From Thysanoteuthis rhombus (taxonomy: Eukaryota; Mollusca; Cephalopoda; Oegopsida; Thysanoteuthidae), in the NCBI GenBank assembly GCA_963457665.1, contig OY735231.1, positions 34,180,369 to 34,244,368 on the forward strand: a stretch of 64,000 nt of DNA, written 5' to 3'. The notes below the pieces were generated by a model. It was given only the letters and a program-made list of their open reading frames with translations. It had not been told where the DNA came from and made no database searches. The position numbers and the translations under genes are program-made. Shown piece by piece: positions 47,274 to 50,200 of this stretch; the first letter of the stretch is position 1; every line of letters begins with the position of its first letter.

Positions 47274-50200
47274 GTGAGTAAACTTAAGCTTCTCCAAATT
47301 GTGTATTTCTCTCCAATTTTAAGCTTGAAATTGTTGTGTAGTTGTCTTAACCACATGGTTATCACTAAACTTACCATATATACTGAAGGATGAGCCAATA
47401 TTTAGAGCATTCAAAGGAAACTGCCAAAAATTGGGTTGTCCTATTGGCCAGATATGAACTAACAGTAACCATGAAATTCTACTCAAAATATCACTTGATT
47501 TTTTCCATAACCCGCCCAGGCTCCAATCTATAACAAATTTTTAAGCTACTGGTATATTAAACAGCTGACGAACATATATAGACACAACATTAATATTATC
47601 AGTGATGCTGGACAGCCTACCGGAGATGACAGGTGAATTTGTGCATGTTGGCTACTCAGGATACCATTTTTTTTTCCCCATTGGTTATTGTTGGTTTTCA
47701 AAATCCTCACCTCATTACCGACAGGCTAATTCTAAGATCCTTTGTTATTAGATTGCAAATACAAAAACACTGACTCCTAACTTCTGTAACGGTGTGTCAG
47801 CAAAGGTTGTTGAGTAATTTTTGTCTTGTCATATTGCCAGATTTTTTCCTTCTTATAAAACTGTTGCACCAGATACTGTACCTCTCTTCTGGGTTAGACC
47901 ATGTCCACTTGAATGAATATTCTCTATTACTACTTGTGACGACATGACAATCCTGCTTCTCTGTTTAAATGCCCCTTTTGAGACCTGAATTTTCCAATTT
48001 TGGTCAACAAGTGAGTCCTCTGGTTGGAGATGGTTTCCTCAGTATTTTTCTTCATTCTTCCTCCACTCTCCCACCATTTTTCTCGGTTATGTCAAATGTT
48101 TTTGCAGCAGCACATTTCTTAGACTCTTTGACTGCTTCAATGACTCAACTTGAAACTTACTTCATACTTTCTTTGTTTTGCTGGTGGCTCCATCATAACA
48201 ATTGAATAGAAAAAATTGTAACTGGTTCAGACAGAAATAAGCAACACTGAAATGTGAATCCATACTTCACCAGCCTCCTGGCCACACCCTCCCCTAGTTC
48301 AGCCAATACTGTATGATATGCATGGTATGTAAACAAAACCAGCCACCGCCTTTAACTTACTGCCAATAGTCTACGTGTGGTATTTACCTTTTGTCTCACT
48401 GATGGCATCACCATTTTAAATGATTCATAGGTAAACATTGAGATATTACCCTCTTATTGGTAATGTATTCAGGGTATTTGATTTACTATATTGGTATATC
48501 ACTGTAACTGTTGTTTGCTGTTCTCTGACCTGAATAACAGCTGACAATACTCAACAATCAATGTTAGGATGTGCTTCATTTTGCATCTATTTTCCTTCAG
48601 CATGTGTTATCATTTCATAATTGACTGTTAACTGTGTAATGAGTCTACATGCTAAAAGTAAATTCATTACTGTTACTTAAGCCTCTTGCTTGCATGCGGT
48701 TTTAGCAGTAATGGTACATTTTTGCAATGGTTTGGTAGCCTAAAGGTTGCTTTATACTACCAACCATGAAATTGCAGTCTCTTATCTTAAGGTTGCCTTA
48801 TCCACCAAAATATACAGTATTTGAAAAGCTTTATCTTCATGTATTTGGCAGAAAGGGCAATATTATTTCTAATCTCCTAAAGGCTACCTTCTGAGTAAAT
48901 AGGTATTCAAAATTCTACTCATTTGCACAGTGTTGTCTCCTGTGTTCACTTAATTTGCTCGTCTGTTTTATTGGACTTGAAATTCTCGAAGAGGCTTGCA
49001 TCTTGTCTAAGTAGTAGAATTGTGAGAAATGATTTTCAATGGGTACATCTGTAAATATTGAAGAAAATGTAAGCTTACAAGTTAACTGGTGTTGATATTA
49101 ATTCCAAAATTATTCCTTGGCTAAAACTAAATACTTTATCTTATTGTTTATGAATTGAATCTTTTGCAGATGCTAAGCGTCTCATTGGCAGAAGATATGA
49201 TGAGTCATCTATCCAGACAGACATGAAACACTGGCCTTTTGAAGTCATAAATGACAGTTCCAAGCCAAAATTGAGAGTCAACTTTAAAGGTGAAAGTAAG
49301 ATCTTTTCTCCTGAGGAAATCTCATCCATGGTTTTGACAAAGATGAAGGAAACTGCCGAAGCTTACTTAGGCAAGGTAATCATCTCAGTTTTGTGTTTGA
49401 TACTTTGATTTATATATTTGTGCCTATTTCACTAATGATTACCAGAATTGAAGTTTGATTACCTATGATATTAATTTTGCTCTGTTTTCATCTGTTTGTA
49501 GAGTGTTTCTAATGTTGTGGTCACTGTCCCTGCCTACTTCAATGACTCCCAGCGACAGGCTACTAAAGATGCTGGAACCATTGCTGGGCTTAATGTTTTG
49601 AGAATTATTAATGAACCCACAGCTGCTGCCATTGCATATGGTCTTGATAAAAAGGTAAATTTTTCATTTAACTTAATGGCTTGAATGTTCTTGATGAAAC
49701 TTGGGATTATTTGCATAAATCCTGATAAAGTTATTTTATTCATTTTTTTTTTTCCTTCAGCATGTGTTATCATTTCATTGTTGATAGTTAACTTTGTGGT
49801 GAGTCTACATGCTAAAAGTAAATCCATTACTGTTACTTTAACCTCTTGCTTGCATGAGGTTTAGCAGTAAGGGTACATGTTAATCATTTAATAGCGTGGT
49901 CACATTATTAATGTACCTACAGCTTCTGCTATTGTGTAGTATGTAAATTTAAAAAAATAAAGTATTTCTTGTTGCTCAAATATTTTTAGTAAAACTTTAG
50001 ATTTTTTACTGTATTGAGCTTCTAACATCTTGGAACCATGTTCTTTTTTTCCTACTTGTAGGCTGGTGGTGAGAAGAATATCCTTATTTATGATCTTGGA
50101 GGTGGTACCTTTGATGTCTCCATATTGACCATTGAAGATGGAATCTTTGAGGTAAAGTCAACTGCTGGTGACACACATCTTGGTGGAGAAGATTTTGATA

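Follow-up and report, generated by a model that had tools for sequence, protein, structure and literature searches.

Box H/ACA snoRNAs, which are bound by dyskerin, NHP2, NOP10, and GAR1, include the closest described counterpart of the RNA considered here, SNORA56. A table in PMC6466398 gives DKC1 as the host gene of SNORA56 and 28S-1664 and 18S-296 as its targets. The closest described counterpart of the setting is U14, a box C/D snoRNA that is hosted by the introns of vertebrate Hsc70 genes in three copies in human, mouse, and rat and that has roles in 2'-O-methylation and in pre-rRNA processing, according to PMC7277114; the initial annotation had stated this hosting correctly. Among the matches listed in a literature search that took in few of the subscription journals, none described, in its title or the opening of its abstract, Hsc70 introns as hosts of an H/ACA snoRNA.

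We analyzed a 64,000-nucleotide stretch of DNA (the window) in which an Hsc70 gene carries two intact, closely similar segments in separate introns. With a probability of roughly 87%, these are copies of a divergent SNORA56-like intronic H/ACA snoRNA that has been duplicated within Hsc70 and serves as the guide for the 18S equivalent of human U296. We infer its transcription, its processing, its binding by proteins, the modification itself, and its descent from SNORA56. The RNA class is a known one; what is unexpected is the Hsc70 host.

Host gene and anatomy of the intact copies

The host gene has six coding exons, which together form an uninterrupted reading frame for an Hsc70 of 645 aa with an EEVD C-terminus (Table 1). 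The protein matches Pfam HSP70 at an E value of 8.7e-264, and among solved structures, Hsc70/HSPA8 chains are the closest to its first 371 residues, which bears out the earlier naming of the host as an Hsc70 gene. Among the best 120 of 7991 entries, the named mollusc Hsc70s of ordinary length are 84 to 88% identical to the host protein, the top-scoring named entries of ordinary length are bivalve (88%), and one further entry matches at 96%. Both snoRNA segments are on the Hsc70 coding strand, in the introns at 47274-49169 and 49655-50061. The initial annotation had assigned them to introns 2 and 4; their location in two Hsc70 introns stands, whereas the numbering, which we keep for convenience, presumes a noncoding exon 1, with an acceptor directly before the ATG. 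Just past the snoRNA in intron 4, positions 49904-49934 repeat the last part of exon 4 (49604-49634) with 87% identity, apparently as the remnant of a small exon-tail duplication.

Table 1. Coordinates of the Hsc70 locus, its snoRNA copies, and related features elsewhere in the genome
Feature	Position	Strand	Remarks
Hsc70 host gene	47075..52567	+	645 aa, Pfam HSP70
Hsc70 coding exons	47075-47273, 49170-49375, 49502-49654, 50062-50617, 51628-52029, 52146-52567	+	
H/ACA snoRNA copy 1, intron 2 (predicted)	48599..48721	+	123 nt
Hairpin-1 5' guide GUUAUC, copy 1	48606..48611	+	
Hairpin-1 3' guide GAGUC, copy 1	48641..48645	+	
H box AAAGTA, copy 1	48655..48660	+	
ACA box, copy 1	48716..48718	+	
H/ACA snoRNA copy 2, intron 4 (predicted)	49759..49880	+	122 nt
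Hairpin-1 5' guide GUUAUC, copy 2	49766..49771	+	
Hairpin-1 3' guide GAGUC, copy 2	49801..49805	+	
H box AAAGTA, copy 2	49815..49820	+	
ACA box, copy 2	49875..49877	+	
Predicted snoRNA ends, both copies			5' start, AGCAUGUG; 3' end, three bases past ACA
Pyrimidine tract TTTTCCTTC, upstream edge of both copies	48590..48598, also 49750-49758	+	
Decayed third copy, intron 5	50650..50794	+	Covariance-model match, 21.2 bits, E 0.018
Stray decayed Hsc70 exon 5-intron 5 fragment	L004:4607-4912 (G000:C14:48284606-48284911)		Holds full-length, stem-damaged snoRNA copy
rDNA of the same genome, L013 (Rfam bounds)	18S 17-2360, 5.8S 2935-3092, 28S 5' part 3689-6672		

The two segments, 123 and 122 nt long, are exactly where the initial annotation placed them and agree in 109 of the 123 columns of their alignment (89%, as had been estimated). 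All of the elements described earlier are present in both: the AGCATGT/ACATGCT closing stem, the AAAGTA hinge, the TTACTG/CAGTAA second stem, and an ACA 3 nt from the end. Each copy is predicted to fold into two hinge-joined hairpins, with an H box (ANANNA) in the hinge and the ACA 3 nt from the 3' end, and the pocket of hairpin 1 is spaced at the canonical 14 nt above the H box; in sequence and modeled structure, the copies thus fit the definition of a box H/ACA snoRNA. Folded alone, each is better than 200 of 200 dinucleotide shuffles (z scores of -3.7 and -5.0).

The similarity between the copies is confined to the segments and their immediate upstream edge. Identity drops right past the 3' edge and approximately 10 nt before the 5' edge, and in ungapped 20-nt blocks, ten per side, the flanks are identical at 3 to 9 of 20 positions in every block bar one, which lies directly upstream of the copies, is identical at 13 of 20 positions, and holds the shared TTTTCCTTC. 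Together with the next AG, TTTTCCTTC resembles a splice acceptor. CCTTCAGCATGT is also common to the acceptor before the Hsc70 start codon (47056-47078) and the 5' edge of the copies, which may be chance or may reflect the origin of the first copy.

None of the 14 columns that differ between the intact copies falls within the 56 of 123 positions assigned to lower stems, guides, and boxes (hypergeometric P = 1.0e-4), nor within the 30 positions of boxes and guides only (P = 0.015), although this test is not blind because the positions were assigned after the alignment was seen. It had been proposed that substitutions in the stems keep pairing, and this holds in part. Seven of the 41 pairs in the minimum-energy structure of the intron-4 copy differ between the copies; four of them are paired in both copies through one-sided changes, whereas three pair solely in the intron-4 copy, in a comparison that uses this copy's own structure and so favors it. 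Among the same 41 pairs, there were no two-sided compensatory changes.

A two-hairpin H/ACA descriptor, which was composed after the copies had been seen, matches the plus strand of the window at three places, namely, both copies and, at 30498, a TA microsatellite, whereas it has no match on the minus strand. In 30 shuffled windows from which the microsatellite had been removed, it gave 15 matches in all, with a match on the plus strand in 1 of 30 windows and on either strand in 10 of 30, and because of this last figure the descriptor is weak by itself. Chance hairpins were rejected on the strength of the duplication with unrelated flanks, the pattern of change, and the pocket, rather than of the descriptor. 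Two other classes were also rejected. The CAB box of a scaRNA is a UGAG in an apical loop; in the copies, UGAG is confined to the hinge-side pocket of hairpin 1, and the predicted apical loops lack it. For U14 or another box C/D RNA, there was no gathering-level match to any Rfam family in the window.

Hairpin-1 pocket and its predicted 18S target

Read 14 nt up from the H box, the guides of hairpin 1 are GUUAUC (5') and GAGUC (3'), giving GACUC-U-N-GAUAAC as the target. The 18S rRNA of the same genome holds GACUC-UG-GAUAAC, with the U at L013:420 (base 404 of the Rfam-bounded 18S), and the pocket forms 11 of 11 Watson-Crick pairs there (5+6) in the canonical register. The matching of pockets to rRNA that had been suggested as a check is thereby borne out for hairpin 1, and the placement of an H/ACA snoRNA in Hsc70 is upheld by this match together with the anatomy, the 14-nt spacing, and the lack of change at assigned positions.

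Over four registers, L013:420 is the best site in the readable rDNA locus (score of 27; next, 19), in which the 28S is represented by its 5' part. The target string is also present in human 18S (1869 nt), where we take its U to be position 296, the equivalent of L013:420. Dinucleotide-shuffled versions of the readable rRNA attained a score of 27 in 2 of 600 cases in the canonical register and in 10 of 600 when four registers were allowed. Permuted guides did so in 19 of 1500 cases and base-shuffled versions of human 18S, over four registers, in 35 of 2000. When stem registers are freely chosen, other sites score 27 to 28 for the window copies, and because of these equal or higher-scoring sites, the assignment of the target hinges on reading the pocket in the canonical 14-nt register. 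In the human core pieces (3753 nt in all), no hairpin-1 target was better than the 18S site. Searched as a pattern, the 18S-296 pocket with an H box behind it is found in the window at the two copies only and is absent from 40 kb around matches to DKC1 domains.

PMC6182160 gives a length of 1869 nt for human 18S and, in its Table 1, pseudouridine at position 296 at a level of 25%. In two further studies, the modification of U296 differs between cell lines and is undetectable in breast-cancer samples, respectively. The 18S of the genome analyzed here is long as bounded by Rfam (2344 nt), and 18S matches recur approximately every 11.4 kb on contigs C384, C353, C341, and C298; L013 corresponds to G000:C384:5600-15500.

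For the hairpin-2 pocket, no convincing target was found in the 18S, 5.8S, or readable 28S of the same genome, in which the best sites are of low complexity or weak, or in the human pieces. One site in human 28S, which we take to read CUAA-UU-AGUGACG, gives hairpin 2 a score of 23 with 2 to 3 unpaired nt beside the stem. Its U is presumably outside the list of human pseudouridines, counted from neighboring mapped positions.

Similarity to SNORA56 and other Rfam families

The initial annotation had suggested Rfam H/ACA models as a check. No family reached its gathering score in the window, and the best matches were SNORA56 for copy 2 (24.5 bits) and SNORA13 for copy 1. When copy 2 is compared alone, SNORA56 comes first over its full length, with GUUAUC and GAGUC aligned, at an E value of 0.0034 that stems from a small search of 146 bases. 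SNORA56 was not listed in an Rfam search of the 3.2 kb holding both copies, and it was not listed for copy 1 at E values of ≤10, where SNORA13, SNORA69, and SNORA15 lead with 21.6 to 24.1 bits. A search of the genome for SNORA56, in which 42 of 113,198 candidates were scored, gave no match, not even to the window copies, and 3 of 14 prokaryote controls gave a signal, with none over the cutoff; because it missed the window's own copies, this search is insensitive as well as negative.

With free registers, the top-scoring site of the SNORA56 consensus in human 18S is U296 (29; next, 28) and that in the rDNA of the genome analyzed here is L013:420 (31; next, 29), at the same stem boundary. At 28S-1664 of the human piece, the consensus scores 20, and another site scores 23. 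The window copies fall below the threshold of 3+3 and 8 pairs in all at 28S-1664, in both the human sequence and its equivalent in the same genome, whose 28S retains the sequence of this site.

In 40 kb around two DKC1-domain matches, taken without set limits for the DKC1 gene, neither a model built from both copies (at E values of ≤10) nor SNORA56 (at E values of ≤1) gave a match. Near these matches, L019:7169-7291 (minus strand, C14) matches Rfam U2 snRNA with 63.9 bits against a gathering score of 46 and is probably a U2 pseudogene that covers mostly the 5' part of the model.

These results bear on the best-surviving alternative, which we consider improbable, namely, that the copies are a genuine H/ACA snoRNA that does not act mainly on 18S U296, being an orphan or working through hairpin 2, and that the hairpin-1 match is due to chance. 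Chance does attain the observed score in the 10 of 600 shuffles over four registers, the similarity to SNORA56 is below threshold on copy 2 and absent from the list for copy 1, and hairpin 2 is about as similar between the copies as hairpin 1 (89% and 86%, respectively). However, the register of the match is canonical, the site is pseudouridylated in human, and the same guide strings occur in SNORA56, all of which argue for guidance of the U296 equivalent.

Further copies and the history of the locus

With copy 1 as the query, BLAST of the 2.73-Gb genome found at least three places (copy 1, copy 2, and C14:48284791-48284906, an 85% match to copy 1), a number that is a lower bound; the same search missed a copy in intron 5. 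An ordinary repeat, which the initial annotation had tied to many copies genome-wide, is not supported by this search. Both decayed copies, in intron 5 and on C14, are absent from the initial annotation.

Hairpin 1 of the intron-5 copy is recognizable, with its lower stem broken, and hairpin 2 is unrecognizable; relative to the other copies, the hairpin-1 part is 71 to 78% identical and the hairpin-2 part 39 to 45%. The same copy also shows as repeat families of 48 and 38 nt (D2 and D3). The reading frame of exon 5 (50062-50784) stays open for 55 codons into intron 5, through the decayed snoRNA. A 51-nt inverted repeat in intron 5 (50765-50815 and 51325-51375; 86% complementary, 509 nt apart) adjoins the decayed copy and is like a foldback element that may have disrupted hairpin 2.

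The C14 copy scores 67.4 bits with damage to both lower stems: that of hairpin 1 is without its 5' strand, with six of eight pairs broken, and that of hairpin 2 has two broken pairs. Immediately before it lies a piece of Hsc70 exon 5 with a broken reading frame (tblastn, residues 325-371, E value of 5.9e-8), and a 76% blastn match spans exon 5 into intron 5. The fragment appears to be a stray duplicate of Hsc70 exon 5 and intron 5. Because it keeps intron sequence, it looks like a DNA-level duplicate and not a retroduplicate, and because it holds the snoRNA, intron 5 presumably once held a full copy. All of the snoRNA copies found adjoin Hsc70 sequence.

The decay of two of the four copies found would also be expected of a dead or dying intronic repeat, in which old snoRNA copies are no longer processed, but we regard this as very unlikely in view of an intact pair that is unchanged in boxes, guides, and lower stems despite 14 other differences and of the at least three places found by BLAST with copy 1 in 2.73 Gb. 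Least likely of all is that there is no RNA gene and that a cryptic exon or splice-regulatory element was duplicated, with copies starting at the acceptor-like string TTTTCCTTCAG; this string is common to both copies, 47056-47078 (the intron 1/exon 2 junction) and 49743-49765 are 87% identical, and both copies have a GT near the 3' edge (GGTACAT), but the differences spare the H/ACA elements, the pocket matches rRNA, and the context of the GT is unlike the donor consensus.

Proposed function and comparison with known systems

On the reading that we prefer, a SNORA56-like guide RNA in Hsc70, the snoRNA would be released from the spliced Hsc70 introns and its ends would be set by trimming upon binding of the H/ACA proteins. 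Its 5' hairpin would then guide pseudouridylation of the 18S U at L013:420, so that the RNA would work as SNORA56 does in vertebrates while being housed in Hsc70 rather than DKC1. Copying within Hsc70 would have left it intact in introns 2 and 4 and decayed in intron 5 and in the stray C14 fragment.

Whether this arrangement has a regulatory meaning is a more speculative matter. The guide for a sub-stoichiometric 18S mark would sit multiplied in Hsc70, the main constitutive chaperone gene, rather than in the dyskerin gene, and the level of the mark could track Hsc70 transcription, an idea that we consider doubtful. If it is true, chaperone demand and ribosome modification would be coupled, much as with the three U14 copies of vertebrates in the same host. 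Since the modification of human U296 is variable (25%, different between cell lines, or undetectable), the duplicated guide may serve as a usable test of dosage. Rfam cutoffs miss these copies, and therefore counts of H/ACA snoRNAs in such animals may be too low; members of the class can be recovered by checking their pockets against rRNA.

SNORA56 (ACA56, RF00417) is, like the RNA described here, an intronic two-hairpin H/ACA snoRNA, with a model of 129 positions compared with 122 to 123 nt, and its 5' hairpin likewise carries GUUAUC and GAGUC directed at 18S U296 with the same stem boundary. The two differ in that copy 2, with 24.5 bits, is far under the gathering score of 80 and copy 1 is not listed, in that the host is Hsc70 instead of DKC1 and contains two intact copies, and in that the listed target 28S-1664 has no above-threshold pairing with the copies. 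We do not file the copies as Rfam SNORA56 because of this score, this second target, and this host. Nevertheless, the shared hairpin, identical guide strings, and similar length favor descent from SNORA56 with a change of host over convergence of the pocket. The locus suggests that a snoRNA with a functional counterpart in vertebrates can sit in a different host gene with the pocket kept letter-perfect.

SNORA40, SNORA13, SNORA69, and SNORA15 also match weakly over the whole length (18 to 24 bits), as the shared H/ACA architecture would lead one to expect, but all of them remain under their gathering scores. SNORA40, to which the search of 3.2 kb had pointed, was rejected as the identity of the copies, given that its targets as listed in PMC6466398 (28S-4546 and 18S-1174) differ from the predicted 18S site and that SNORA56 outscores it on copy 2.

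With U14/SNORD14 in vertebrate Hsc70, the locus shares the presence of multiple copies of one snoRNA in the introns of the same chaperone gene, although U14 is a box C/D snoRNA whereas the copies here are of the box H/ACA type. The comparison suggests that, in two animal lineages, Hsc70 hosts multicopy snoRNAs that belong to different classes.
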